From Candidatus Phyllobacterium onerii (GTDB taxonomy: Bacteria; Pseudomonadota; Alphaproteobacteria; Rhizobiales; Rhizobiaceae), in the NCBI RefSeq assembly GCF_028331445.1, contig NZ_JAQMHX010000005.1, forward strand, positions 248,001 through 312,000: a stretch of DNA of 64,000 nt, written 5' to 3'. The position numbers and the translations under genes are program-made. The notes under the pieces are model-generated. The model saw only the letters and a program-made list of their open reading frames with translations, was not told the DNA's origin and made no database searches. Of this stretch, positions 49,828-63,079 are shown in pieces (the first letter of the stretch is position 1; every line of letters begins with the position of its first letter).

Positions 49828-51870
49828 TTGCCATCACATGACGATCCGCTGCTGCAACCCTATCAGCTCAAACATCTGCGGCTCAAAAACCGCATCATGT
49901 CGACCAGTCACGAGCCTGCCTATTCCGAAGACGGCATGCCGAAGGAGCGCTACCGGCTCTATCACACCGAGAAGGCCAGGGGCGGTATCGCGCTGACGAT
50001 GACGGCGGGGTCTGCGGTCGTCTCGCGCGAGTCGCCGCCTGCTTTCGGCAATCTCCATGCCTACAAGGATGAGATCGTGCCTTGGCTGCGCGAACTCAGC
50101 GATGATTGCCATGAGCACGGCGCTGCCGTGATGATCCAGCTGACGCATCTTGGCCGCCGCACAAGCTGGAACAAGGCGGACTGGCTGCCTGTGGTTTCGG
50201 CTTCCCCGATACGGGAGTCTGCGCACCGCGCGTTCCCGAAGGAAGCGGAGGAGTGGGATATCGAGCGGATCATCGGCGATTATGCCTCTGCTGCGCAGCG
50301 TATGCAGGCGGCGGGGCTCGATGGCATCGAGTTCGAGGCCTATGGGCATCTGATGGACGGTTTTTGGTCGCCAGCCACCAATCTTCGCGACGATGAGTAT
50401 GGCGGTTCGCTGGACAACCGGCTGCGCTTCACCTGGGCGGTGATCGATGCGGTGCGCAAATCGGTCGGCCCGGATTTCATCGTCGGCATTCGCATGGTGG
50501 CGGACGAGGATTGGGAGCAGGGACTTTCCAAGGAAGAGGGCGTCGAGATCGCCCGGCGCATCGCAGCATCCGGCAAGTTCGACTTTTTGAACATCATTCG
50601 CGGCCATATCGATACGGACGCGGCGCTGAACGAGGTTATCCCGATCCAGGGCATGCGGTCCGCGCCGCATCTCGATTTTGCCGGTGAAATTCGCCAGCAG
50701 ACGAAATTCCCCACCTTTCACGCGGCGCGTATCGCCGATGTGGCGACGGCGCGCCATGCGGTGGCCGAGGGCAAGCTCGACATGGTCGGGATGACGCGGG
50801 CGCATCTCGCCGATCCGCATATCGTGCGCAAGATCATGGCGGGCGATGAACATCGCATCCGACCCTGCGTCGGCGCCACCTATTGCCTCGACCGGATCTA
50901 TGAGGGCGGCGAGGCGCTCTGCGTGCACAATGCGGCGACCGGGCGCGAGCAGACCATGCCGCATGTTATTGCGAAAGCGCAGACGCCGCGCAATGTGGTG
51001 GTCGTGGGTGCCGGTCCGGCAGGGCTCGAGGCGGCGCGCGTTGCCGCCGAGGGCGGTCACCGGGTCTCGGTATTGGAGGCATCGGATCAGGCGGGCGGTC
51101 AGGTGCGGCTTGCATCACAAAATCCGCGGCGCAAGGAGATGATCGGCATCGTCGATTGGCGCCTTGACGAACTCGAGCGGCTCGGTGTTTCGCTGCGCTA
51201 CAATGTCTGGGCCGAAGCCGGCGACGTGCTTGGGCTCGAGCCAGATGTGGTGGTGATTGCGACAGGCGGCCTGCCGCAAAACCCGCCATTGACGGCGGGC
51301 GACGACCTGGTGGTCTCGAGCTGGGATATTCTGGCCGGAGCCGTCAAGCCGGGCGAAAATGTGCTGCTCTATGACGACAATGGCGGGCACCAGGGCATGA
51401 GCGCGGCGGAAATGATCGCGCGTGCTGGGTCAAAGCTCGAACTTGTCAGTCCCGAGCGGTTTTTCGCGCCGGAGATGGGCGGCATGAACCACGTGCCCTA
51501 TATGCGCGCTTTCCAGGAAAAGGGCGTGCGCGTGACGATCAACACGCGGCTTGTCAGCGTCACGCGCAACGGTAACCAGCTTGTCGCGACGCTCGGCTCG
51601 GATTTTGCGCCGGAGTATCGCGAGGAACGTCTGGTCGATCAGGTGGTTGTCGAGCATGGGACCTTGCCGATCGACGATCTCTACCGCGAGTTGAAGCCAT
51701 TGTCGCGCAATGGCGGCGCCGTGGATTATGACCGGCTGGTCAATGGCGGCGCGATCTTTCCCACGCGGGGAGAGGGCACGTTCGATCTGTTGCGGATCGG
51801 CGATGCCGTCCACGCCCGCAACATCCACGCGGCGATCTATGACGGGCTGAGATACGCGACACGATTTTAG
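49828..51870 (+). CDS. Flavin oxidoreductase of the trimethylamine dehydrogenase / N-methylproline demethylase group
   Basis: 680 residues, probably TTG start with AAGGGAA upstream. An N-terminal old-yellow-enzyme barrel (1-335; NRIMSTSHEPAYSEDGMPKE, GIEFEAYGHLMDGFWSP) is followed by a cysteine motif (347-365) and an FAD/NAD-binding half (VVVVGAGPAGLEAARVAAEGGH). The architecture is that of trimethylamine dehydrogenase and of enzymes demethylating dimethylglycine or N-methylproline. The cysteine motif is C347-VG-A-TY-C353-x11-C365, so the second of four cluster cysteines is Ala350. A betaine-type binding protein gene faces it, which fits an N-methylated substrate. Exact substrate unknown. Confidence 0.85.
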   Translation: MPSHDDPLLQPYQLKHLRLKNRIMSTSHEPAYSEDGMPKERYRLYHTEKARGGIALTMTAGSAVVSRESPPAFGNLHAYKDEIVPWLRELSDDCHEHGAAVMIQLTHLGRRTSWNKADWLPVVSASPIRESAHRAFPKEAEEWDIERIIGDYASAAQRMQAAGLDGIEFEAYGHLMDGFWSPATNLRDDEYGGSLDNRLRFTWAVIDAVRKSVGPDFIVGIRMVADEDWEQGLSKEEGVEIARRIAASGKFDFLNIIRGHIDTDAALNEVIPIQGMRSAPHLDFAGEIRQQTKFPTFHAARIADVATARHAVAEGKLDMVGMTRAHLADPHIVRKIMAGDEHRIRPCVGATYCLDRIYEGGEALCVHNAATGREQTMPHVIAKAQTPRNVVVVGAGPAGLEAARVAAEGGHRVSVLEASDQAGGQVRLASQNPRRKEMIGIVDWRLDELERLGVSLRYNVWAEAGDVLGLEPDVVVIATGGLPQNPPLTAGDDLVVSSWDILAGAVKPGENVLLYDDNGGHQGMSAAEMIARAGSKLELVSPERFFAPEMGGMNHVPYMRAFQEKGVRVTINTRLVSVTRNGNQLVATLGSDFAPEYREERLVDQVVVEHGTLPIDDLYRELKPLSRNGGAVDYDRLVNGGAIFPTRGEGTFDLLRIGDAVHARNIHAAIYDGLRYATRF

Positions 51871-51878
51871 CAGGGCTT

Positions 51879-51899
51879 TCTCTCCCACAAGGGGAGAGA
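51879..51899. terminator. Hairpin between convergent flavoenzyme and binding-protein genes
   Basis: 8-bp perfect stem TCTCTCCC/GGGAGAGA (51879-51886 and 51892-51899), 5-nt loop, in the 50-bp gap between stop codons. No T-run; probable weak bidirectional terminator. Confidence 0.5.
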
Positions 51900-51920
51900 T
51901 GGTCGGCATCGGCTGTCCGC

Positions 51921-52922
51921 TTACTTGATTGCTGCCTTGATCTTTTCGGCAGCGTCTTCGCTAACCCATTTTGTCCAGACAGGCTCATTGTTCTTGAGGA
52001 AGTATTTCGCGCCGTCTTCACCGGTCGCCTGATTGTCGGTCATCCAGGCCAGAAGCGTGTTGACGGTCTTGTTGTCCCACGAGCGGGCCTTGAGATAATC
52101 CATCGCGGGGCCGGACGTTTCGCTGAATTTCTTGGTAACGACCGTATCGACTTCGGCGATTTCCCAATCGTTCTTCTTCGGGTCCGGGCAATCGGCAACC
52201 GTGTTGCAGCGCTTCCATTCGGCGGCATCGAATTTCGCGCCGTGGTCGAGCTTCACCATCGGATATTTGCCAAGGAGCGCAGTCGGTTCCCAATAGTAGC
52301 CGATCCAGCCTTCCTTGCGCTCGTAGGCTTTTGCCAGCGCGCCATCGAGGCCGGCGGCGGAACCCGTATCGACGAGCGTGAAGCCCTTCTTTTCGGCGTC
52401 ATAGGCCTTGAAGAACTGTGTGGTTGCGACAGTGCCGCCCCAGCCGGCAGGCCCGTTGAACACGGCGCCCTTGGAGGGATCCTCAGGCGCGGGGAAAAGT
52501 TCCGGATGCTTCAGCGCGTCGTCGATGGTCTTGATGTCGGGGTGGGCGTCGGCGAGATATTTCGGGATCCACCAGCCCTGGACACCGCCGTCGGAGAGCG
52601 ACTTGGAGGCGTAGACGAGCTTGCCGTCGGCAACCGCCTTGTCCATGATATCGCGCATGAAATCGACCCAGCCTTCAGGGGCAATGTCGGGCTGGCCCTT
52701 TTCCGTCATGGAGGTCAGGGTAGGGATCGTGTCGCCCTGAATGATTTCGGCCTGGCAGCCATAGCCGGATTCGAGAATGATCTTGTCGAGATTGGCGAGA
52801 ACTTCCGCCGACTGCCAGTTCATGCTGGCGATCGTGACGTTGCCGCACTCGGCAGCCGATGCACCGCCTGCGGCGCCGAGCAACGCGAACGCCATGACGC
52901 CGCTCATCAATAATGCTTTCAT
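51921..52922 (-). CDS. Glycine betaine/proline betaine-type ABC substrate-binding protein
   Basis: 333 residues from ATG 52922 (MKALLMSGVMAFALLG), which has AGGGAA upstream; the frame runs 38 codons further back but without a ribosome site. Signal peptide ends GGASA. The OpuAC-type domain has NVTIASMNWQSAEVLANLDKII, GDTIPTLTSMTEKGQPDIAPE, GWWIPKYLAD and GWIGYYWEPTALLGKYPMVK. The aromatic residues are those that usually cage a quaternary amine. No permease or ATPase gene lies beside it in this window. Confidence 0.9.
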   Translation of the reverse strand: MKALLMSGVMAFALLGAAGGASAAECGNVTIASMNWQSAEVLANLDKIILESGYGCQAEIIQGDTIPTLTSMTEKGQPDIAPEGWVDFMRDIMDKAVADGKLVYASKSLSDGGVQGWWIPKYLADAHPDIKTIDDALKHPELFPAPEDPSKGAVFNGPAGWGGTVATTQFFKAYDAEKKGFTLVDTGSAAGLDGALAKAYERKEGWIGYYWEPTALLGKYPMVKLDHGAKFDAAEWKRCNTVADCPDPKKNDWEIAEVDTVVTKKFSETSGPAMDYLKARSWDNKTVNTLLAWMTDNQATGEDGAKYFLKNNEPVWTKWVSEDAAEKIKAAIK

Positions 52923-53063: not shown

Positions 53064-54650
53064 CTAATCAAACAGTTTCTCATCGATTTCAATGAGATAT
53101 GGCGCTCCGCTCGCCTTGGCTTCGAGCAAGGCGGCAGGCAGTTTTTCGAGACTGTCCAGACGCTTTGACGGGACGCCGTATGCCTCGGCGATTTTCAGAT
53201 AGTCCGGTGCCGATGGACGCACGCCAACCGGGTCGATATCGACCTCGATCATGGCGCGTTCGATTTCCTGATAGCCCTGATTGTTCCAGACAATGAAGAT
53301 GACGGGCACACGCTCATCGACCGCCGCGCCGAGTTCGCCGAGGACGAACTGGAAGCCGCCATCGCCGACGATGCAGATCGTCGATGTTTCCGGCTGTCCC
53401 AGCGATGCGCCAATGGCGGCCGGCGGGCCAAAGCCAAGCGCTCCGAACCCGGTCGCCGCGTTGAAATAACCGCCAACGCGGTCGTGATCGTAGTACAGAT
53501 TGCCCGCATAAATGGCCTGCGTGGAATCGCCGACGATGAGCGAACCCGGCAAAGTATCACGCAAGGTATCGAGGAAACGGACCATGCCCTGGTAGCGCGG
53601 GCCGATATGAGCCCAGGCTGCATCGCGCGTCTGCCGTGCGCGCTCTACGCCGGAATGGGAATTGCGACGCTCGGGCAGGGCGGCCGCAAGTACCTCGACC
53701 GTTTCCTTTGCCGATGCCTCGATCGGCATGAAGGCCGGATGGCGGTCGAGTTGTCCCGCGTCGATATCGATGCGCACGAGCCGTTTCAGCTCAGGAAAAC
53801 CACCATCGCCGTACATGTCATAATCCGTCGGGCCCATTTCCGTGCCAATCGCGATGACGAGATCGCTGTTGGCAAGCAAGGCACGGCACGGCTTCAGACT
53901 GGGACCGGCCGGTATGAGCAGGGGGTGCGCATGCATGATGCCGCGTGCGTTGGTCGTCGCGATGACAGGCGCATCGAGCTTCTCCGCCAGGGCCTGCAGG
54001 GCGCTGGCAGCAGCCTTGGCGCCGCCGCCGATCAGGATCACCGGCCGTTCGGCGCCGAGGCAAAGGCGCGTCAGTTCCGCCATGGTCTCGGCCGAAGCGT
54101 GCGGGATCGGTGCATCGGAGGACAGGCGTTCCGCGTCATCCAGTGGCAGCGCCATCACATCCAGCGGAATCTCGATATGGACGGGACCGGGACGGCGCGA
54201 GGCAAACAGGGCAAAGGCTCTGGCGAGCACGATGGCCAGCTCGTCGGGCTTCTCGATGCGATGGGAGAACATCGCGACAGTCTGCAACATGGCGCGCTGA
54301 TTGGGCAGTTCGTGCAGGAAACCCATGCCCTTGCCCAGCGAATCGCGCTGGTTGACGCCGGAGATGACCAGCATCGGGATCGAGTCGGCACGGGCCTGAC
54401 CCATGGCGGTTATCGTATTGGTGATGCCTGGACCGGTGATGACGAAAGCAACGCCAGGCTTGCCGGTGGCTCGCGCATAGCCATCGGCCATGAAGCCCGC
54501 GCCCTGTTCATGGCGCGGCGTGATGTGGCGGATCTTCGAGCCGGCGAGGCCGCGGTAGAGCTCGATGGTGTGGACGCCGGGAATGCCGAAAACCGTATCG
54601 ACATCATAGGTTTCGAGCAGGTGGACGAGGGCTTCACCGACAGTGGTCAT
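53064..54650 (-). CDS. aruI: Thiamine-diphosphate decarboxylase, AruI type (5-guanidino-2-oxopentanoate decarboxylase)
   Basis: 528 residues from ATG 54650 (MTTVGEALVHLLETYDVDT); this ATG overlaps the stop of the transaminase gene by 4 nt (ATGA). The open frame upstream lies inside that gene and is spurious. Family features: catalytic Glu in TPRHEQGAGFMADGYAR, ITGPGITNTITAMGQA, GVNQRDSLGKGMGFLHELP, and ThDP/Mg site GDGGFQFVLGELGAAVDE..WNN. AruI decarboxylates 2-ketoarginine to 4-guanidinobutyraldehyde in the arginine transaminase pathway. Coupling with an AruH-like transaminase supports that role; acetolactate-synthase-like alternatives are less likely. Confidence 0.85.
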   Translation of the reverse strand: MTTVGEALVHLLETYDVDTVFGIPGVHTIELYRGLAGSKIRHITPRHEQGAGFMADGYARATGKPGVAFVITGPGITNTITAMGQARADSIPMLVISGVNQRDSLGKGMGFLHELPNQRAMLQTVAMFSHRIEKPDELAIVLARAFALFASRRPGPVHIEIPLDVMALPLDDAERLSSDAPIPHASAETMAELTRLCLGAERPVILIGGGAKAAASALQALAEKLDAPVIATTNARGIMHAHPLLIPAGPSLKPCRALLANSDLVIAIGTEMGPTDYDMYGDGGFPELKRLVRIDIDAGQLDRHPAFMPIEASAKETVEVLAAALPERRNSHSGVERARQTRDAAWAHIGPRYQGMVRFLDTLRDTLPGSLIVGDSTQAIYAGNLYYDHDRVGGYFNAATGFGALGFGPPAAIGASLGQPETSTICIVGDGGFQFVLGELGAAVDERVPVIFIVWNNQGYQEIERAMIEVDIDPVGVRPSAPDYLKIAEAYGVPSKRLDSLEKLPAALLEAKASGAPYLIEIDEKLFD

Positions 54651-55837
54651 GCGGATTTCCGTTGTTGCAGCCGCGATGCGAGGCGGACGATACCGGCGCA
54701 GGCTGCGTCGATCTTGTCGTCGGCAATGCTGAGGCTCATGCGAAGATAGCCGGCAAGGTTGTCGCCGAAGGACTCGCCCGGCATGACCGCGACGAGCTCC
54801 TCTTCGAGAAGGCGCATGGCGAACTCCTGGCCAGACAGCCCGGTGGCGCGAATATCGGCAAGAATGAACATGCCGGCTTGCGGGATTTTGGCAACGATGC
54901 CCGCCTTGCCATCCAGACGTTCCGAAATGTGCTGGGCGCGGCGCAGAAAGCTCTCGCGCATCGTGGCCGCCGCGGTGGATGGGCGGCTGAGAGCATAGGC
55001 CGTCATGTCGGCGATGAAGGGCTGTCCGCCGAAGAGCATGGATTCGGACAGTGGCAGCAGACGCTCCGTAAATTCGTTGGGGGCGATGCACCAGCCGCTG
55101 CGGAAACCCGGCGCGGCATGGGATTTGGAGATGGAGGCCACGGCAATGGTGCGATCGGCAAGTTCCGCCCGGTCCAGCGGCGACGCGAACGTGCCGTTGT
55201 AGATCATCAGTTCATAAACTTCATCGGACACGATCCAGAGATTGTGCCTGATGCAGACTTCGCCGATTTCGGCTATCTCCGTGGCGCTCAGCACGGCGCC
55301 TGTCGGATTGTGCGGCGTGTTGAGCAGGAGAACCTTCGACCGCGGCGTGATGACTTTTTCAAGGTCTGCGGCCTGCATGCGGAAACCTTTTTCGGGCCGC
55401 AGCGGGACGGAAACACGCGTCGCGCCGGTTGCCCGGACAACGCCGTCATAGGTCGCATAGAGCGGATCGCCGGTGATGATCTCGTCGCCTTCCTCGGCAA
55501 GTCCCATCATGACCATCGACAGGGCAGTTTGCGTGCCGGAGAAACACATGATGTTTTCCGGACCAATCTGGCGTCCCGTGCGCGCGGTGTATTTCGCCGA
55601 AAGCGCGGCAAGCAAAGCCGGCTCGCCGCGACCGCTGGAATAGCCGGTGCGGCCAGCACGCATCGCCCGTTCGGCGACGTCTATCATGTCGGTTGGCGTC
55701 GGAATATCAGGCTCGCCGATCGTCAATTCGATGATGTCGTGTCCCGCCTGCTTCATTTGGCGGGCGCGGAAATGGACAGCCCATTTGTCGGATCCAAGTC
55801 CGGCCAGACGGTCGGTGACAGACGCATAGCGCATCAT
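54647..55837 (-). CDS. aruH: PLP aminotransferase, AruH type (arginine-pyruvate transaminase)
   Basis: 396 residues, class I/II fold. Start MMRYASVTDRLAGLGSDKW at 55837, with AGGAGG 6 nt upstream and overlapping the TetR stop (ATGA). Motifs: ELTIGEPDIPTPTDM, NTPHNPTGAVLS, DEVYELMIYNG and the PLP Lys in ASISKSHAAPGFRSGW. AruH converts L-arginine to 2-ketoarginine, which AruI then decarboxylates. Specificity is inferred from the partner; the family also includes aspartate and aromatic transaminases. Confidence 0.82.
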   Translation of the reverse strand: MMRYASVTDRLAGLGSDKWAVHFRARQMKQAGHDIIELTIGEPDIPTPTDMIDVAERAMRAGRTGYSSGRGEPALLAALSAKYTARTGRQIGPENIMCFSGTQTALSMVMMGLAEEGDEIITGDPLYATYDGVVRATGATRVSVPLRPEKGFRMQAADLEKVITPRSKVLLLNTPHNPTGAVLSATEIAEIGEVCIRHNLWIVSDEVYELMIYNGTFASPLDRAELADRTIAVASISKSHAAPGFRSGWCIAPNEFTERLLPLSESMLFGGQPFIADMTAYALSRPSTAAATMRESFLRRAQHISERLDGKAGIVAKIPQAGMFILADIRATGLSGQEFAMRLLEEELVAVMPGESFGDNLAGYLRMSLSIADDKIDAACAGIVRLASRLQQRKSA

Positions 55838-56496
55838 ATCGCGCCTCCTTTTTCAGGATTGAGAGAAATTGCAAGAACGGCTTCGATAGCGGCTATACCG
55901 GTCTCGGCCAACTCTCCTTCAGCAAAAATATCACCCGCAAGACAACCTTCAAGCCATAGCCCGTCGATAATCGCGTTGACGGCGATGGCGTGGCGGCGGG
56001 TATGAATTGGCTCAGCCGGCTTGCCGGCGGCCAGCAACGCTTCGCGGATGAGCGCTTCCAGCTCGTCGCGGAAACCAAGGTATCCGTCGCGGTGCGCCAA
56101 AGCCATGGCGGGATCAGCGTGAACCATGCCGATGAATCCCGCCCACAGGGAAAGATTGTTGGGGTCCATGATCGGTTGGCCGAGGTTGGCCTTCACGAAA
56201 GCATTGAGACGGTCACGCGGATCATCGGCGGCACTCTTCAATGCATCGCTTGCCTGAACCGTCATGCGGTTCATGACGGCGCGATAGGCAGCGCCGATAA
56301 GATCGTCCTTGGCCGGAAAGTAATAGCGGATGAGACCAGCGGTCACATCGGCGCGCAGAGCGATCTCGCGCACAGTCGCTCCTGCAAGACCGCGCTCAGC
56401 CACACATTCAAGGGTCGCCGCGATCAGATCCTCGCGGCGTTTGTCTTCGCCCTCGCGGCGGAAGCTCTTGCGTGTGGTAGAGCGGGATTCCGTCAT
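55834..56496 (-). CDS. TetR/AcrR family transcriptional regulator
   Basis: 220 residues from ATG 56496 (MTESRSTTRKSFRREGED), overlapping the upstream hydrolase stop by 4 nt. The N-terminal helix-turn-helix (about 23-70) has LIAATLECVAERGLAGATVREIALRADVTAGLIRYYFPAKDDLI. The ligand domain is of the BetI-like length and style (LSLWAGFIGMVHADPAMALA). It probably represses the operon it lies in and perhaps the divergent transporter; the inverted repeat at 57402-57417 is a candidate site. Confidence 0.9.
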   Translation of the reverse strand: MTESRSTTRKSFRREGEDKRREDLIAATLECVAERGLAGATVREIALRADVTAGLIRYYFPAKDDLIGAAYRAVMNRMTVQASDALKSAADDPRDRLNAFVKANLGQPIMDPNNLSLWAGFIGMVHADPAMALAHRDGYLGFRDELEALIREALLAAGKPAEPIHTRRHAIAVNAIIDGLWLEGCLAGDIFAEGELAETGIAAIEAVLAISLNPEKGGAI

Positions 56497-57362
56497 TGGC
56501 GCCAGACGGGGCGGGTCAGGCAGGTGGGGCCGCCTTCGCAGGCGATGCACAGGGCATCGGCTTCGAATGTGGTGACCGTGCAACCCGCAGCTTCCATGGC
56601 AGCTTTGGTCTTTTCAAAACCGGCGACGGCGATCACCTCGTAGGGTGCGGTCGGCAACACATTCAGATTAAGCCCGTTGCTCGCGGCGAACTCTTCTTCC
56701 GGTGCCACGACGAGGCGGATGCCGCGCTCCTTCAGGAGCTGGTAGAAGGCGGCAGGCAGCAGTGGTAGGTGCACCAGCGCCAGATCCTCGGCCAATGGGG
56801 AAATGATCGACATCAGATGCAGGCAGGCTTCTTCGCCATGCCAGAGCGGCAGATCGAAGCCAAGGACAGTGATGCCGAGAGGTTTCAGGATGGCTGAAAG
56901 CTGTTCGATGCCGGACTGGTTGGTGCGGACACCGCGCCCGACGGCCAAGGTCTTGCTGTCGACCCAGACGCAATCGCCGCCTTCGACGGTGCCCGGCGCT
57001 TCGATGCGGCCGAGAACAGGGACATCCATCTCGCGGTAGGTCGCGTGATGCAGATCGGGTTCATCGAGGCGCAGCTTCTTGCCCATGCGCAGGAGCACCG
57101 CGCCTTTATCGGTGACGAGCGAAGGATCATGGGTGAATATCGAATCCGAGAGCGCGTCGTTGCCGTCGCGTATCCAGGTGATGTCGGCACCGGACCGGGC
57201 GATAAGATCGGCGAAGACCTTGTGTTGTTCGGACGCACGGCGCGGATCGAACTGCGGCCCGTAGTGCCAGACGTCACGTTCGGCGCCGGCCATGACCCTG
57301 TCCGGCATGCGCATTATGACGCGTTTCAAGGGAAGGGCCATGGACTGCGAACCGAATGTCAT
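56493..57362 (-). CDS. Arginine deiminase/dimethylargininase family hydrolase
   Basis: 289 residues with the amidinotransferase (pentein) fold. Catalytic residues are in place: EGGD near 127 (VEGGDCVWVDSKTLAVG), His near 176 (PLWHGEEACLHLM) and the nucleophile Cys near 281 (GGPTCLTRP). Members hydrolyse arginine, dimethylarginine or related guanidines to citrulline plus an amine or ammonia. The length is nearer dimethylargininase (about 255-290) than arginine deiminase (about 410). ATG 57341 (MALPLKRV) is an alternative start. First gene of a four-gene operon whose members all overlap by ATGA. Confidence 0.82.
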   Translation of the reverse strand: MTFGSQSMALPLKRVIMRMPDRVMAGAERDVWHYGPQFDPRRASEQHKVFADLIARSGADITWIRDGNDALSDSIFTHDPSLVTDKGAVLLRMGKKLRLDEPDLHHATYREMDVPVLGRIEAPGTVEGGDCVWVDSKTLAVGRGVRTNQSGIEQLSAILKPLGITVLGFDLPLWHGEEACLHLMSIISPLAEDLALVHLPLLPAAFYQLLKERGIRLVVAPEEEFAASNGLNLNVLPTAPYEVIAVAGFEKTKAAMEAAGCTVTTFEADALCIACEGGPTCLTRPVWRQ

Positions 57363-57401
57363 CTTTTGGGGGTGCTCTCGAAAAATTGCTGGTCGGTGTA
57401 T

Positions 57402-57417
57402 TTATACGCTTGCATAA
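57402..57417. promoter_or_regulatory. Inverted repeat, possible TetR operator
   Basis: TTATAC-GCTT-GCATAA, two 6-bp half-sites (TTATRC) in inverted orientation, in the gap between the divergent hydrolase operon and the transporter operon. It lies 40 bp before the hydrolase start. It might equally be part of an AT-rich promoter. Tentative. Confidence 0.35.
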
Positions 57418-57536
57418 TTAGAGCGCAAGTGGTGTGATGGGCTAAATTCGGGCAATCAAGACCCATGCTGACAAAAGAGGCGGATCGAATAACTGATGAT
57501 TGAGCAAGCACGACAGCTATGCGCGGGAATCCCGGA

Positions 57537-58355
57537 ATGACGGCGAATGTAGCCGTTGCGGCGGATCCTCTCCAACCCGGCGCGGCTGAACAGGCTGAAG
57601 CTATCCACATCGAGAACCTGCACAAGCGGTTCGGCGCGCTTGAAGTGCTCAAAGGCGTTTCCATGTCCGCCAAGGACGGCGATGTCGTCGCCATGATCGG
57701 CGGCAGTGGCTCGGGTAAGTCGACATTCCTGCGCTGCATAAATTTCCTTGAAAATCCCACCAGCGGCGTCATTCGCATCAATGGCGAAGATGTCAAAATG
57801 GTCAGTGACGGCCATGGCGGCCAGGTGCCGGCCAATCGCCGCCAGATCGAGCGCATTCGGAGCCGGCTCGGCATGGTGTTCCAGAATTTCAATCTCTGGC
57901 AGCACATGACGCTGATCCAGAATGTCATCGAAGTGCCGGTGCATGTGCTTGGCATGAGGCGCGACGAGGCGATGGCCATTGGCGAGCAGCTTCTCGAGCG
58001 CGTCGGTCTTTCTGCCAAGCGCGATGTCTATCCCGCCTATATGTCCGGTGGACAGCAGCAGCGCGGCGCAATCGCGCGGGCGCTGGCCATTCAGCCGCGT
58101 GTGATGCTGTTCGACGAGCCGACATCGGCGCTCGACCCCGAGCTTGTCGGCGAGGTCCTGAAGGTTATAGCCGACCTCGCGAAAGAGGGCCGGACGATGT
58201 TGCTGGTCACCCACGAGATGAAGTTCGCCCGCGAAGTGGCGAGCCATGTGATGTACCTGCACAATGGAATCGTCGAGGAGGAAGGGCCTCCGGAACAACT
58301 ATTCGGATCGCCGAAATCTGAACGTTTGAAGCAGTTTATCCGAACTGTTTCATAA
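57537..58355 (+). CDS. Polar amino acid ABC transporter ATPase (HisP/ArtP type)
   Basis: 272 residues from ATG 57537 (MTANVAVAADP); ATG 57519 is possible but lacks a ribosome site. Walker A GGSGSGKST, Q-loop GMVFQNFNLWQHMT, signature MSGGQQQRGAIARAL, Walker B VMLFDEPTSALDPE and the H-loop THEMKFAREV, which is typical of the polar amino acid class. First gene of the transporter operon, divergent from the arginine catabolic genes. Confidence 0.94.
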   Translation: MTANVAVAADPLQPGAAEQAEAIHIENLHKRFGALEVLKGVSMSAKDGDVVAMIGGSGSGKSTFLRCINFLENPTSGVIRINGEDVKMVSDGHGGQVPANRRQIERIRSRLGMVFQNFNLWQHMTLIQNVIEVPVHVLGMRRDEAMAIGEQLLERVGLSAKRDVYPAYMSGGQQQRGAIARALAIQPRVMLFDEPTSALDPELVGEVLKVIADLAKEGRTMLLVTHEMKFAREVASHVMYLHNGIVEEEGPPEQLFGSPKSERLKQFIRTVS

Positions 58356-58414
58356 GTGACTAAAAGCAATACAGGGAGCAACCCTGGGGAACAGTTGAAC
58401 CAATGGAGATGAGA

Positions 58415-59197
58415 ATGAAGTCTTTTCTGAAAACAACGGCAGCAGCCGTTGTGCTTGTGGTTGCCGGCCTTGGCGCAGCCAATGCCGAGCAGGTCAAGGT
58501 TGGCATCGCCGCCGAACCCTATCCGCCTTTCGCGGCGCCCGATGCATCCGGCAAATGGCAGGGCTGGGAAATCGACATCGCCATGGCAATGTGCGAGGCG
58601 GCCAAGCTTGATTGCGTCATCACGCCGGTTTCGTGGGACGGTATCATTCCGGCGCTGACGACGAAGAAGATCGACATCATCGCAGCTTCGATGTCGATCA
58701 CCGCGGAACGCGAGAAGACGATCGATTTTTCGGACAAGTACTACAATACCCCGACGTTGATTCTCGGCTCCAAGGACGAGAAGATGGACGCGACACCCGA
58801 AGGTCTGAAGGGCAAGATCCTTGGCGTGCAGGTTTCGACCGTGCACCAGGCCTATGCGAAGAAGCATTTCGCTGACACTGGCGCCGAGATCAAGGAATAT
58901 CAGACGCAGGATGAGGCCAACCAGGATCTGGCAGCCGGACGTATCGACGCCACCCAGGCCGATGGACTGGCGCTGCAAACCTTTGCTGACACGCCTGAAG
59001 GCAAGGCTTGCTGCGACATCAAGGGCAAGGTCGCCGATGATCTGGATATCCTTGGACCTGGCGTTGGCGTTGGCCTGCGCAAGGGCGACACTGCGATGAA
59101 GGAAAAGTTCAACGCGGCGATCAAAGAAATCAGGGCCAACGGGAAGTATGACGAAATCTCGAAGAAGTACTTCACCATCGACATGTATGGCGGCTGA
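58415..59197 (+). CDS. Polar amino acid ABC substrate-binding protein (ArgT/HisJ type)
   Basis: 260 residues; ATG 58415 with GGAGATGAGA upstream. Signal peptide TAAAVVLVVAGLGAANA. The SBP family 3 domain has VGIAAEPYPPFAAPDASGKWQG, GWEIDIAMAMCEAAKL, DIIAASMSITAEREKTIDFSDKYY, and GRIDATQADGLAL. Ligands are basic or polar amino acids; the neighbouring genes suggest arginine or a derivative. A strong hairpin follows its stop, probably lowering expression of the permeases relative to this protein. Confidence 0.92.
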   Translation: MKSFLKTTAAAVVLVVAGLGAANAEQVKVGIAAEPYPPFAAPDASGKWQGWEIDIAMAMCEAAKLDCVITPVSWDGIIPALTTKKIDIIAASMSITAEREKTIDFSDKYYNTPTLILGSKDEKMDATPEGLKGKILGVQVSTVHQAYAKKHFADTGAEIKEYQTQDEANQDLAAGRIDATQADGLALQTFADTPEGKACCDIKGKVADDLDILGPGVGVGLRKGDTAMKEKFNAAIKEIRANGKYDEISKKYFTIDMYGG

Positions 59198-59206
59198 TTG
59201 AGTTTG

Positions 59207-59239
59207 GGCCGGCGTTGGGTTTCCAACTCCGGCCTTTTT
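59207..59239 (+). terminator. Intra-operon terminator/attenuator after the binding-protein gene
   Basis: Outer stem GGCCGG/CCGGCC (59207-59212 and 59229-59234) and inner stem GTTGG/CCAAC (59214-59218 and 59223-59227), then TTTTT. It lies between the binding protein and the first permease gene, 9 nt past the stop. Confidence 0.8.
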
Positions 59240-59279
59240 ATTGTTCGAAACCCGCATTTGACGCTGAATCGAGGACGGC

Positions 59280-60032
59280 TTGGCCGACGCATCGATTATC
59301 CCCGCCGGAATTACCGGCATGTTCGATCTTCTATCTCCTGTTGCGCCAGGGTGGGGTGCCAATCTCTTGCGCGGGCTGGTGCGGTCGCTGCAGATCGCGT
59401 TCGGCGCGTTCGGCATGGGCCTGATTATCGGAACATTCGGCTCATACGCGAAACTATATGGCGGTCCGATCGCACGCGACCTGGCGGCAGTCTACACGAC
59501 GCTGGTACGGGCAATTCCCGAACTGGTGATGATTATCCTGCTCTATTACGCGGGAACGGACCTGATCAATCGTATCCTTGAGGGATTGGGGTATCAGCGC
59601 GTCGATATCAGTGGTCTCGTCGCCGGTATCGTCGTGCTCGGCTTTGTGCAGGGCGCGTATGCGACGGAAGTGCTGCGCGGCGCAATCAAAGCCATCCCGC
59701 AAGGCGAGATCGAGGCGGCGAGGGCCTACGGCATGTCGCCTGTGCTGATGATGCGCCGCGTCACGCTGCCGGCCATGCTGCCGCACGCGTTGCCCGGACT
59801 TGCCAATCTCTGGCTCATTTCGACGAAGGATACAGCGCTGCTTGCAGTGGTTGGCTTCAGCGAACTGACACTGGAAACACGGCAGGCTGCCGGGACGACG
59901 AAAGCCTACATGACGTTCTACCTCGCCGCCGGTGCGCTCTATCTGTTCATTACGCTGTTCTCCAGTGTCATCCTGGAATGGGTTGAGAAACGTGCGCGGC
60001 GCGGCATGCCTTCCGTGAAGGAGGCGCGCTGA
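59280..60032 (+). CDS. Polar amino acid ABC permease (HisQ type)
   Basis: 250 residues, TTG start with GAGG 5-6 nt upstream. Five or so membrane segments; the inner-membrane motif is EAARAYGMSPVLMMRRVTLPAML (EAA loop), and LVRAIPELVMIILLYYAG is typical of the family. A 1-nt overlap (TGATG) joins it to the second permease gene. Confidence 0.93.
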   Translation: MADASIIPAGITGMFDLLSPVAPGWGANLLRGLVRSLQIAFGAFGMGLIIGTFGSYAKLYGGPIARDLAAVYTTLVRAIPELVMIILLYYAGTDLINRILEGLGYQRVDISGLVAGIVVLGFVQGAYATEVLRGAIKAIPQGEIEAARAYGMSPVLMMRRVTLPAMLPHALPGLANLWLISTKDTALLAVVGFSELTLETRQAAGTTKAYMTFYLAAGALYLFITLFSSVILEWVEKRARRGMPSVKEAR

Positions 60033-60883
60033 TGTCCAATGCGCTTGGCGAAACCGAAATCGAAGTCCCGATCGAGACCTTTCCGATTCACAAGGAAAAG
60101 GACGCAAGCAGTCTGGCAAGTAAGCTGCCGCCGCATCGCATCGTGCTTATTCTGATCGGGTTGGCGCTTGTGGCTTCGGCGGCGTTGTTCATGCGTTGGG
60201 ACTGGCTGCCGCAATATGGCGGTCTGATCTTGCAGGGTCTGTGGCGGACGATCTGGATACTGGTCGTGACGGTCGTCCTTGGTTTCCTGCTGGCGGTTCC
60301 CCTGGGATTGGCGCAGGCATCCGGCCCGGCGTTCCTAGCTATTCCGGCGCGTGCGTTCTGCACTGTCATTCGCGGTACGCCGCTGCTCGTCCAGCTTTGG
60401 CTGCTCTATTACGGCCTCGGGTCGCTGTTCCCGCAATATCCCTGGATCCGGGGATCCGAGCTCTGGCCTTACCTGCGGCAGGCGTGGCCCTATGCGGTCC
60501 TTGCCCTGACGCTGTCCTACGCCGGTTATGAGGGCGAAGTGATGCGGGGTGCCTTTGCGGGTGTTCCCAAGGGGCAGCTGGAGTCCGCGCGCGCTTTCGG
60601 CATGCCGCGCTTTACCATCTTCCGCCGTATCTGGCTGCCGCAAGCCATTCACAGGGCGCTGCCGACACTGGCAGGCGAAGCCGTGCTGCAGCTGAAATCC
60701 ACACCGTTGGTCGCGACGATTACCGTTGTCGATCTATACTCGGTTGCATCGCGCGTCAGGCAGGACACGTTTCTTACCTACGAACCGCTGCTTTTGCTGG
60801 CGGCGGGCTATCTCGTGATCACGGGCATCATCGTCATGCTATTCCGGCGCGTGGAAAGATTGATACCGTCGAAGCTTGGTTGA
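60032..60883 (+). CDS. Polar amino acid ABC permease (HisM type)
   Basis: 283 residues. A cytoplasmic N-terminal extension of about 35 residues is followed by five or six membrane segments. TVIRGTPLLVQLWLLYYGLG and the EAA loop ESARAFGMPRFTIFRRIWLP identify the family. Last gene of the four-gene transporter operon (ATPase, binding protein, two permeases). Confidence 0.93.
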   Translation: MSNALGETEIEVPIETFPIHKEKDASSLASKLPPHRIVLILIGLALVASAALFMRWDWLPQYGGLILQGLWRTIWILVVTVVLGFLLAVPLGLAQASGPAFLAIPARAFCTVIRGTPLLVQLWLLYYGLGSLFPQYPWIRGSELWPYLRQAWPYAVLALTLSYAGYEGEVMRGAFAGVPKGQLESARAFGMPRFTIFRRIWLPQAIHRALPTLAGEAVLQLKSTPLVATITVVDLYSVASRVRQDTFLTYEPLLLLAAGYLVITGIIVMLFRRVERLIPSKLG

Positions 60884-61075
60884 GCGTTTTCTGGTGGTGG
60901 CGCAAATGACGGGACTTATGTCGCAAGTGTTGGAGGCGTGTCGCTGAGCAGATGCGCATAGTGTGGGCAAAAGGAACACCTCGCAAAAGACGAGAAAATG
61001 GGACGCGTATCACCGGCGGTGCAAAGCCGGTGAGCATTCGCCATTTTCGACTCTTTGACGAGGCGAAGGGTGATA

Positions 61076-63079
61076 ATGCGGACAGTCGAGACTTTTCAGC
61101 ATAATATCCACGAGCACGCCGATATGGGCATCATCCTGCCTGACGGCTGCCGACTTTCGGCGAGAGTCTGGATGCCAGACGGTGCCGAGCAGACCCCGGT
61201 TCCTGCAATTCTCGAATTTCTCCCTTATCGCAAACGCGATGGCACCACCGCCCGGGACAACCTCACGCATCCATATTTCGCTGGCCACGGGTACGCCTGC
61301 CTGCGCATCGACATGCGCGGCAATGGCGATTCCGAAGGGCTGATGGAGGACGAGTATTCCGAGCAGGAACTGGCCGACGCCTGCGAGGTGATCAAGTGGA
61401 TAGCAGCGCAGTCCTGGTCGACCGGCAAGGTCGGCATGATGGGCATATCCTGGGGCGGCTTCAATTCGCTGCAGGTGGCGGCGCTGCAGCCGGAAGCGTT
61501 GAAGGCGATCATCACGCTTTGCTCGACCGATGACCGTTATGCCGACGATATTCACTATAAGGGCGGCCTGCTGCTGAACGAAAATCTCGGCTGGGGCGCA
61601 ACGATGCTTGCCTACTCGTCGCGCGCACCAGACCCGGCGCTCGCTGGCGAGAAATGGCGCGATATGTGGCTCGACCGGCTCGACAACGAGCCTTTCCTGC
61701 CGACCGTCTGGCTGAACCATCAGACGCGCGACGCCTATTGGCAGCGCGGTTCGGTCTGCGAGGACTTTTCGGCGATCAAGGCGGCGACACTGGCCGTGGG
61801 CGGTTGGGGCGATGCGTACAAGAATGCCGTGCCGCGGCTGATGGCGGGCATAACCGCGCCGGTCAAGGGCATCATCGGGCCCTGGGTGCACAAATATCCG
61901 CACTTTGCCGTGCCGGAACCGCGCATCGGCTTCCTGCAGGAGGCGCTGCGCTGGTGGGATCGCTGGCTCAAGGATATCGATACCGGCGTCGAGAACGATC
62001 CGGCCTATCGTGGTTATCTGATGGATTCGGTGCGCCCAAGGAGTTGGTACACGGAACGTCCGGGTCGCTGGATTGCCGAACAGGAATGGCCATCGAAGGC
62101 GATTGCTCCCGAAGTGCTGCATCTGCAAGCCGACAAATCCCTTGCCGCCGAGGTATCTGACGGCTTTTCCCATCTCGTGGCGTCGCCGCAGGATTGCGGC
62201 ATGATGGGCGGCGAATATTGCGCGATCTGGCTCGGACCGGAAATGCCCGGCGACCAGCGCCGCGACGATGCGCTGTCGGTTTGCTATGGCACGGTTCTGG
62301 ACAAGCCCATCGATATTGTCGGCGCGCCGGAGATCAAATTGACGCTGTCGAGCGACAAGCCGGTTGCTATGGTCGCGGTGCGGCTTTGCGATGTGCATCC
62401 GGATGGTGCGTCGACCCGCATCACCTATGGCGTATTCAATCTGTGCCATCGCAGCGGGCACGACAAGCCGGAGCCGCTTGTGCCGGGAGAAGCGATCGAC
62501 ATCCGCTTCAAGCTTGACGATATTGCCTATCGCATACCGGCCGGGCACATATTGCGGGTGGCCGTCTCGTCGTCCTATTGGCCGATGGTCTGGCCCTCAC
62601 CGGAAAGTGTAAGCCTCACGATAGAGGGTGGGCAGATCAGCGTTCCTTCGCGGGAGCTGGCGACAGGCGACGAATGGACCTTTCCGGAGCCGGAAGCCGC
62701 GTCGCCGTGGCAGCTTGAAACCTTGCGCACCGGCGGCAACAGCCGGTCGATCGAACATGATCAGGTCACAGGCAAGATCAGTCTGGTGATTGAAGACGAT
62801 TTCGGCGAAGCGCGAGACAAGGATCATGGACTGATCCATGGCGGCGTTGCGCGCGAGCGCTGGGAAATCAACGCCGACGATCCACTTTCCGCCTATGGCG
62901 AAACTCATTGGACCGAGATTTCAGGGCGCGACAACTGGCGCATCCGCACCGAGACTTTCACGACGATGCGGTCTGACAAGCACAATTTCTATCTGACTGG
63001 GCGCATCGAAGCATACGAAAACGACAATGCGGTGTTCGAGCGCGATTTTACCGAGACGATTGCACGCAATCACATCTGA
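61076..63079 (+). CDS. CocE/NonD family hydrolase (X-Pro dipeptidyl-peptidase S15 type)
   Basis: 667 residues; ATG 61076 (MRTVETFQHN) with GAAGGG upstream. The catalytic alpha/beta domain (about 20-330) has VPAILEFLPYRKRDGT, IDMRGNGDSEGLM and nucleophile GISWGGFNSLQ; the His is probably in GPWVHKYPHF. A C-terminal jelly-roll domain (about 370-540) has APEIKLTLSSDKPVAMVAVRL. The family hydrolyses esters or amides such as N-acyl and prolyl bonds. Here it sits beside a peptide transporter, so a peptide or amide substrate is plausible. Confidence 0.9.
   Translation: MRTVETFQHNIHEHADMGIILPDGCRLSARVWMPDGAEQTPVPAILEFLPYRKRDGTTARDNLTHPYFAGHGYACLRIDMRGNGDSEGLMEDEYSEQELADACEVIKWIAAQSWSTGKVGMMGISWGGFNSLQVAALQPEALKAIITLCSTDDRYADDIHYKGGLLLNENLGWGATMLAYSSRAPDPALAGEKWRDMWLDRLDNEPFLPTVWLNHQTRDAYWQRGSVCEDFSAIKAATLAVGGWGDAYKNAVPRLMAGITAPVKGIIGPWVHKYPHFAVPEPRIGFLQEALRWWDRWLKDIDTGVENDPAYRGYLMDSVRPRSWYTERPGRWIAEQEWPSKAIAPEVLHLQADKSLAAEVSDGFSHLVASPQDCGMMGGEYCAIWLGPEMPGDQRRDDALSVCYGTVLDKPIDIVGAPEIKLTLSSDKPVAMVAVRLCDVHPDGASTRITYGVFNLCHRSGHDKPEPLVPGEAIDIRFKLDDIAYRIPAGHILRVAVSSSYWPMVWPSPESVSLTIEGGQISVPSRELATGDEWTFPEPEAASPWQLETLRTGGNSRSIEHDQVTGKISLVIEDDFGEARDKDHGLIHGGVARERWEINADDPLSAYGETHWTEISGRDNWRIRTETFTTMRSDKHNFYLTGRIEAYENDNAVFERDFTETIARNHI

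Follow-up and report, generated by a model that had tools for sequence, protein, structure and literature searches.

A TetR-linked arginine-family uptake and catabolic module in Phyllobacterium and its candidate Nω-methylarginine hydrolase

Described systems and the Phyllobacterium locus

The aspC-ilvB1 locus of Sinorhizobium meliloti encodes an aminotransferase and a decarboxylase that are reported to be promiscuous (PMC7268258), and it is among the nearest described parallels to the locus considered here. The latter lies in a window of 64,000 nucleotides from the soil bacterium Candidatus Phyllobacterium onerii (assembly GCF_028331445.1, contig NZ_JAQMHX010000005.1, positions 248,001 to 312,000), the window being the whole stretch of DNA that was analyzed. 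Two operons diverge across 53064-60883 of this window: the minus-strand operon carries, in order, genes for a pentein hydrolase, a TetR regulator, an aminotransferase and a thiamine diphosphate (TPP)-dependent decarboxylase, and the plus-strand operon encodes the ATPase, binding protein and two permeases of an ATP-binding cassette (ABC) importer. S. meliloti Ak57 (L181, CP090106.1) possesses syntenic ABC, TetR, aminotransferase and decarboxylase genes whose proteins are 44-72% identical to those of the window, and from gene order and homology this module appears to be the aspC-ilvB1 locus (SMc02262-SMc02263). It differs from the window in having an M20 amidohydrolase and no pentein hydrolase. 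The aminotransferase and M20 genes of the Ak57 module are read in two pieces without annotated coding sequences, which may represent sequencing error or decay.

Other systems resemble parts of the locus. The hydrolase of the ddaH-ddaR system of Pseudomonas aeruginosa (L179) is likewise a pentein and shares its catalytic and head-group residues with that of the window, but the two hydrolases are only 28.6% identical, and the Pseudomonas gene is accompanied by DdaR and by an adjoining basic amino acid/polyamine antiporter gene rather than by TetR, an ABC importer and AruH/AruI. The aruH-aruI pair of the same species combines an aminotransferase with a decarboxylase of the AruI model, a likeness judged through this model and through S. 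meliloti AspC; the pair is not known to include a hydrolase. AspC is stated to have 40% sequence homology with AruH (PMC7268258). In Mycobacterium tuberculosis, a hydrolase annotated as dimethylarginine dimethylaminohydrolase (DDAH), Rv2323c, belongs to the arginine-induced roc cluster, but its neighbors are rocDE and it is required for growth on arginine itself (PMC4569260). The putative citrullinase CtlX is also a pentein of amino acid catabolism, but it has Asn at both guanidine-Asp positions (FPNN and HTN), where the hydrolase of the window reads FTHD and HLM (PMC9007349). Finally, modules in the roseobacters Sulfitobacter sp. W027, Phaeobacter inhibens P92 and Ruegeria pomeroyi DSS-3 have syntenic ABC, TetR, aminotransferase and AruI genes (44-74% identical) and differ in that the hydrolase is a canonical-type DDAH at the other end of the operon, which it terminates; these proteins are annotated as dimethylarginine dimethylaminohydrolase or arginine deiminase family protein.

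Eukaryotic protein turnover releases free methylated arginines. A search of titles and abstract openings in the open-licence literature returned no account of bacterial methylarginine catabolism past the DDAH step, and no recognizable account of the combination of hydrolase, AruH/AruI and importer. The reading preferred here, for which the balance is about even, is that the locus is a TetR-controlled arginine-family uptake and catabolic module whose hydrolase cleaves Nω-substituted arginine as an accessory entry to the transaminase route. A more tentative extension, which falls somewhat short of an even chance, is that this is an Nω-methylated-arginine utilization system widespread in alphaproteobacteria, in which the hydrolase clade of the window (clade A1) would be a dimethylargininase, one TetR operator would wire importer and transaminase route together, and the canonical-type DDAH of roseobacters would represent a non-orthologous exchange. 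Rhizobia and marine roseobacters would then possess a full path for methylated arginine (DDAH-type step, importer and 2-oxo acid route), a function would be provided for a pentein clade annotated merely as 'arginine deiminase family protein' in records H2 and H3, and the cell might subsist on arginine in both plain and modified form.

Under the preferred reading, all eight genes would belong to a single module, controlled by TetR, for the uptake and catabolism of arginine-family amino acids. Its importer would handle basic alpha-amino acids, among which arginine and its Nω-methylated forms are probable. The hydrolase would act via Cys281-His182-Glu127 on an Nω-substituted L-arginine, for which mono- and asymmetric dimethylarginine are the likeliest candidates; attack at the guanidine carbon would give citrulline and (di)methylamine, the citrulline presumably returning to arginine through ordinary biosynthesis. 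The aminotransferase would convert arginine and/or ornithine, with pyruvate, to a 2-oxo acid that the TPP enzyme would decarboxylate to an aldehyde, and an aldehyde dehydrogenase encoded elsewhere would then produce guanidinobutanoate or gamma-aminobutyric acid. The hydrolase would thus be an added entry onto an existing transaminase route and not a competing fate of arginine. All of these substrates are predicted ones.

Conservation, import and regulation

A genome collection of 84,980 species was scanned with an alignment of the hydrolase family and the best 80 of 579 confirmed stretches were used; all 80 loci were therefore found via the hydrolase, and counts on them are conditional on its presence. 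The hosts among these 80 are mostly Phyllobacterium, Mesorhizobium, Rhizobium, Shinella, Hoeflea and Ancylobacter, with some Rhodobacteraceae and single metagenome-assembled genomes labelled Oceanospirillaceae and Gemmatimonadetes. Twelve loci were dropped because a flank was too short; the remaining 68 have 7 kb or more on either side of the hydrolase, and in these gene presence was called by analyst-set identity thresholds. At least three ABC genes are found in 66 of the 68, AruI in 60, TetR in 55, AruH in 36, an Ldh2-type dehydrogenase in 26, a short-chain dehydrogenase/reductase (SDR) in 23 and an M20 amidohydrolase in 19. The catabolic genes lie downstream of the hydrolase on its strand in 65 of 66 loci, and the ABC genes are divergent in 66 of 67. 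Because the ABC genes, AruI and the orientation are conserved over these loci, the co-location is not due to chance, and the eight-gene set is a real, conserved arginine-family module of known parts that is probably co-regulated. An arginine-family catabolic module with its own importer had been proposed in an earlier note on this DNA; this conservation and the published S. meliloti aspC-ilvB1 pair (PMC7268258) both back that proposal. The same note called the combination unusual, but it is common in Rhizobiaceae and Phyllobacteriaceae.

The gene classes named in that note agree with the Pfam and NCBIfam domain calls, and its divergent operon is a complete polar amino acid ABC system, with a binding protein, two permeases and an ATPase identified. 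The coupling of the four catabolic genes likewise stands, with ATGA at all three junctions. The aminotransferase reading frame opens with two consecutive ATGs and its relatives L158, L160 and L176 start at the second (MRYAS/MRFAS); a start there would reduce the overlap at that junction to 1 nt.

The importer has the components and residues of an LAO/HisJ-class uptake system, namely an SBP_bac_3 protein, two HEQRo-type permeases, an ATPase and the residues that contact an alpha-amino acid. Its binding pocket was compared across 84 modules, comprising 75 matched loci of the 79 with an A1 hydrolase, six without a hydrolase and three with a canonical-type DDAH. The equivalents of LAO Ser70, Arg77 and Asp161, together with a Trp and a Glu of the side-chain pocket, are constant in all 84, and Ser72 is kept in 83. 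The pocket is the same with or without the hydrolase and does not track it. Modules with an A1 hydrolase, with a canonical-type DDAH or with neither, all sharing one binding-protein pocket, constitute a natural experiment.

Regulation was approached through the divergent intergenic regions, which could be read at 70 of the 80 loci, 68 of them reaching far enough to score tetR. The pattern CTTG-N13-CAAG is present in 49 of the 70, against 0.28 expected from shuffles; the tetR-bearing loci have it in 47 of 56 cases, and the 12 loci without tetR never do. It is also found in the S. meliloti module and in three other modules that lack the hydrolase, and is missing from two hydrolase-less modules and from all three roseobacter modules. 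The intergenic region of the window contains just one 6-bp palindrome as a perfect inverted repeat, and the operator emerged from the alignment. The longer form CTTGC-N11-GCAAG has one exact site in the window, at 57409, and eight sites with at most one mismatch against 3.26 expected; genome-wide it has 29 sites against nine for a reversed control. Since it is not rare in the genome, support for the operator comes from its position and its linkage to tetR rather than from rarity. One TetR probably controls both operons, given that the operator lies between the two halves and correlates with tetR; TetR would act as a repressor responding to a ligand.

Table 1. Features of the module in the window (positions refer to the window)
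Feature	Position	Strand	Basis
Pentein (guanidino-group-modifying) hydrolase, 289 aa, DDAH-like clade A1	56493-57362	-	ORF, Pfam/NCBIfam ADI/pentein
TetR regulator, 220 aa, BetI-type C-terminal domain	55834-56496	-	Pfam/NCBIfam
Class I/II aminotransferase (AruH/AspC-like), 396 aa	54647-55837, start possibly 55834	-	Pfam/NCBIfam
TPP-dependent 2-oxo acid decarboxylase (AruI/IlvB1-like), 528 aa	53064-54650	-	NF005712, 755.5 bits, cut-off 500
Polar amino acid ABC transporter ATP-binding protein, HisP-like	57519-58355	+	Pfam/NCBIfam
Periplasmic binding protein, LAO/HisJ class, SBP_bac_3	58403-59197	+	NCBIfam, pocket residues
ABC permease, HisQ-like, BPD_transp_1	59280-60032	+	Pfam/NCBIfam
ABC permease, HisM-like, BPD_transp_1	60032-60883	+	Pfam/NCBIfam
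42-bp block, identical in window and five Phyllobacterium loci	57398-57439	none	Intergenic alignment
Candidate TetR operator CTTG-N13-CAAG (CTTGCATAATTAGAGCGCAAG)	57409-57429	none	Lies inside 42-bp block, divergent intergenic region

The transaminase route and the place of ornithine

The decarboxylase passes the NCBIfam model for 5-guanidino-2-oxopentanoate decarboxylase (Table 1) and is 56% identical to its S. meliloti homologue. The aminotransferase stays below the cut-off of every NCBIfam model shown (25 of 88), the best being GntC with 245.6 of 415 bits, and the designation 'AruH-like' reflects its clustering and its homology to the S. meliloti protein. The reported AspC substrates for transamination with pyruvate are arginine, agmatine, ornithine and putrescine, and 5-amino-2-oxopentanoate is decarboxylated by IlvB1 seven-fold better than the guanidino acid (PMC7268258). 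This preference makes the earlier assignment of 2-ketoarginine to the AruI-like enzyme uncertain, and it touches on what the earlier note had itself named as counter-evidence, a preference for another 2-oxo acid. The amino acid handled by AruH and AruI of the window may be arginine, ornithine or both.

Some modules do without the aminotransferase. AruH and the Ldh2-type dehydrogenase are mutually exclusive among the 68 loci, none of which has both, and the M20 amidohydrolase accompanies only AruH while the SDR accompanies only Ldh2; the exclusion of AruH and Ldh2 may go back to one event in a single lineage. Mesorhizobium and Pseudaminobacter have the Ldh2 form of the module, and the closest relative of its dehydrogenase in the PDB is DpkA, a delta1-piperideine-2-carboxylate reductase (155.6 bits, next 108.9). 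The usual substrates of DpkA include the cyclic form of 5-amino-2-oxopentanoate. None of the eight genomes of the order sample (described below) taken as Mesorhizobium has an AruH-type gene (E 1e-100). In Mesorhizobium-type modules the DpkA-like dehydrogenase (L042:14200-15201) and an SDR (L042:6498-7205) stand in place of the aminotransferase.

These data bear on the possibility that ornithine is the hub of the module, with AruH and AruI acting on ornithine and 5-amino-2-oxopentanoate and the citrulline released by the hydrolase being made into ornithine elsewhere. The seven-fold preference of IlvB1 and the DpkA-like enzyme in the place of AruH favor this alternative, but AruI falls within the 5-guanidino-2-oxopentanoate decarboxylase model and the genome has no identified route from citrulline to ornithine, as a single CtlX query, run without a positive control, found no match in it. 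A module centred on ornithine is considered unlikely.

The genome, of 6.0 Mb, was also examined for the later steps. No protein in it can be named by sequence as the guanidinobutyrase or the 4-guanidinobutyraldehyde dehydrogenase that the earlier note suggested seeking. It encodes an arginase, two ureohydrolases of the agmatinase family and a fourth protein that matches PF00491 weakly. The arginase gene adjoins that of an aminotransferase, RocD-like by eye, approximately 20 kb beyond the window, and 3 kb past this pair is an aldehyde dehydrogenase that is a 64% homologue of the one in or beside the modules of relatives.

A search of plasmids for AruI recovered mostly Phaeobacter copies (59 of 105 records). 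Around AruI-type genes of other Rhizobiales, a second pentein family is encoded nearby in L167 (where it is adjacent), L170 and L174, and agmatinase-family ureohydrolases are present in L174, L175 and L177, such that AruI recurs near some guanidine-cleaving enzyme in these five loci.

The hydrolase, its predicted substrate and its distribution

The hydrolase of the window shares 99% identity with its Phyllobacterium bourgognense counterpart. Alignment to P. aeruginosa DdaH predicts a catalytic triad of Cys281, His182 and Glu127, with Asp73, Arg98 and Arg146 for the alpha-amino acid head group and Asp79 for the guanidine, and this DDAH residue set is invariant in 48 of 48 clade members. Position 184 differs: according to a comparison of arginine deiminases (ADIs) with DDAHs, it is Asp in the former and Lys in the latter, where it accommodates the dimethylamino group (PMC11659421), whereas it is Met in 46 and Leu in two of the 48 clade members. 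Neither the Lys of DDAHs nor the Asp of ADIs is therefore present at Met184 of the window, and of the two guanidine-binding Asp motifs of ADIs (FTRD and HLD) the protein reads FTHD and HLM. It likewise lacks the Asn residues of CtlX, as it retains Asp79. This set of residues (head group, one guanidine Asp and triad, without the Asn of CtlX) is best fitted by a substituted guanidino L-amino acid, of which methylarginine would be the obvious candidate.

By curated models the protein is neither a DDAH nor an ADI. The ADI models of NCBIfam give 56-57.5 bits against cut-offs of 414-489, and its length of 289 aa compares with approximately 400 aa for ADIs. The predicted structure is confident (mean pLDDT 90.9); P. 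aeruginosa DDAH is top-ranked against it in Foldseek, and structures of the arginine dihydrolase ArgZ are also similar (Z of about 28 in VIA). Arginine dihydrolase was weighed as the activity but not adopted.

The distribution of the hydrolase was examined in an order sample of 397 genomes, the sameness of this set across scans being taken from identical handles and counts, and the limits of clade A1 and its sister clade A2 being the analyst's cut at a gap in the score list. Clade A1 (17 genomes), clade A2 (22) and canonical-type DDAH (55) share no genome at the thresholds used. Of 37 genomes with an AruH-type gene, 29 have exactly one of these three and eight have none, while 65 of the 360 other genomes have one; counted by genus, 12 of 14 AruH-type genera have such a hydrolase, as against 30 of 128 others. 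The Fisher and hypergeometric values for these comparisons, and those for the operator and tetR, ignore relatedness except through the collapse by genus, and are inflated by it. AruI lies in the fetched stretch around the hydrolase in 14 of the 17 A1 genomes.

The module also exists without the hydrolase. ABC, TetR, AruH and AruI occur without it in genomes G361, G365, G107, G028 and G138 and in S. meliloti Ak57; a canonical-type DDAH is encoded elsewhere in G028, G107, G138 and G365, and none was found in G361. Of 97 loci, 84 have the complete set of four transporter genes, and a quick tree of the encoded proteins was built with the 50 rows that were left once near-copies within A1 had been removed. 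On this tree the presence or absence of the hydrolase requires five changes (G361, for example, sits beside a hydrolase-bearing relative), one of which is weak because two long branches (L147 and L163) meet. The hydrolase is thus an accessory to the module: it is absent at several points of this tree, and in the roseobacter operon it gives way to a canonical-type DDAH. The roseobacter proteins are 37-39% identical to P. aeruginosa DdaH, have 27-30% local identity to the hydrolase of the window and carry the canonical FVED, H-F-K and GGMSC motifs.

A1-type hydrolases are also encoded outside the standard module in L146 (Paracoccus sp. IB05), L152, L154 and L157. An aldehyde dehydrogenase gene lies upstream of the hydrolase in L152, with one open reading frame between them, and L146 has a gene resembling FMN alpha-hydroxy acid oxidases.

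The earlier note had suggested that the hydrolase acts on methylated arginine and the other pair of enzymes on arginine or its keto acid. The residue set, the roseobacter DDAH and the exclusive distribution favor this division of labor, and its methylarginine component appears to be the best-supported option for the hydrolase, although the substrates are deduced ones. Several observations weigh against the preferred reading. In the hydrolase itself, Glu65 and Lys164 of DDAH are replaced by His and Met, and clade-wide by His or Gln (one Phe) and by Met or Leu in the 48 members. The DDAH models of NCBIfam fail (86.6 of 340, 78.3 of 450 and 19.7 of 300 bits); the DDAH cut-off is strict, however, since two roseobacter canonical-type proteins that were scanned reach only 206-208 of 450 bits. 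VIA places ADIs (Z 30.1-32.1 over 276-285 residues) above P. aeruginosa DDAH (29.8 over 248 residues), and the C-terminal GGPxC...P...R motif is ADI-like. The need for Rv2323c in growth on arginine itself points the same way (PMC4569260). For the route as a whole, citrulline was present in the published transaminase assay mixture and is absent from the listed AspC substrates (PMC7268258), and no methylamine-utilization cluster was recognized in the genome, where a PF11927 match lies among unrelated-looking reading frames and glutamine-synthetase-like matches are below cut-off. As to linkage, three of the 17 A1 genomes (G024, G036 and G113) have the hydrolase gene outside the module, A2 genes are not adjacent to AruH or AruI so that only genome-level co-occurrence holds for them, nine of the 56 tetR-bearing loci lack the operator pattern, and the locus counts presuppose the hydrolase.

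Part of this evidence would suit a divergent arginine deiminase that converts arginine to citrulline as a branch parallel to AruH and AruI. The ADI-like C-terminal motif, the higher VIA scores and the Rv2323c precedent all favor such an enzyme, as does the finding that the only PF02274 matches in the genome are the hydrolase of the window and one second pentein, so that no ArcA-type deiminase was found there. On the other hand, all 48 clade members have Met or Leu in place of the second Asp with which ADIs bind guanidine, the canonical-type DDAH that replaces the hydrolase in three roseobacter modules has Lys at this position, and the ADI models score far below their cut-offs; a deiminase is distinctly unlikely. 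It is equally unlikely that the enzyme acts mainly not on methylarginine but on some other Nω-substituted amino acid of the guanidino or amidino type, such as an arginine analogue from plants or microbes. Canavanine was also considered as a possible substrate, with legume hosts in mind. The replacement of Glu65 and Lys164 throughout the clade implies a pocket unlike that of DDAH, and many hosts among the best 80 of 579 stretches belong to plant-associated genera, but the canonical-type DDAH in the same operon of three marine roseobacters argues for a common substrate class. That the hydrolase and the transaminase route are unrelated and share just a transporter and a regulator is very improbable: the hydrolase is repeatedly absent from otherwise intact modules, but the operon holds one or the other of two dissimilar hydrolases depending on the lineage, and a DDAH-type hydrolase of some kind is much more frequent among AruH-type genomes than among the rest.

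Three neighboring genes were considered as parts of the module and rejected at a 60% identity threshold, namely those for an OpuAC binding protein (51921-52922) and a 680-aa flavin oxidoreductase (49828-51870), each near the hydrolase in only two of 80 loci, and for a CocE-like hydrolase (61055-63079), near it in only five of 80. The first two face each other at 49828-52922 of the window, the oxidoreductase resembling NADH:flavin oxidoreductases, and both are near the hydrolase only in the nearest Phyllobacterium loci (L078 and L079).

The second pentein of the genome (G000:C12:2267-4803, L186) keeps both guanidine Asp residues (YSRD and HID), and its gene adjoins one for an M20/AbgB-like amidohydrolase. 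Phyllobacterium myrsinacearum has this pentein/amidohydrolase pair together with an aldehyde dehydrogenase directly beyond the decarboxylase of the module (L082:14318-18608). On plasmid NZ_CP017943.1 of Phyllobacterium zundukense (L185 4898-7777), genes for ornithine cyclodeaminase, CtlX and a canonical-type DDAH are consecutive, a trio that together would convert methylarginine to citrulline, ornithine and proline.

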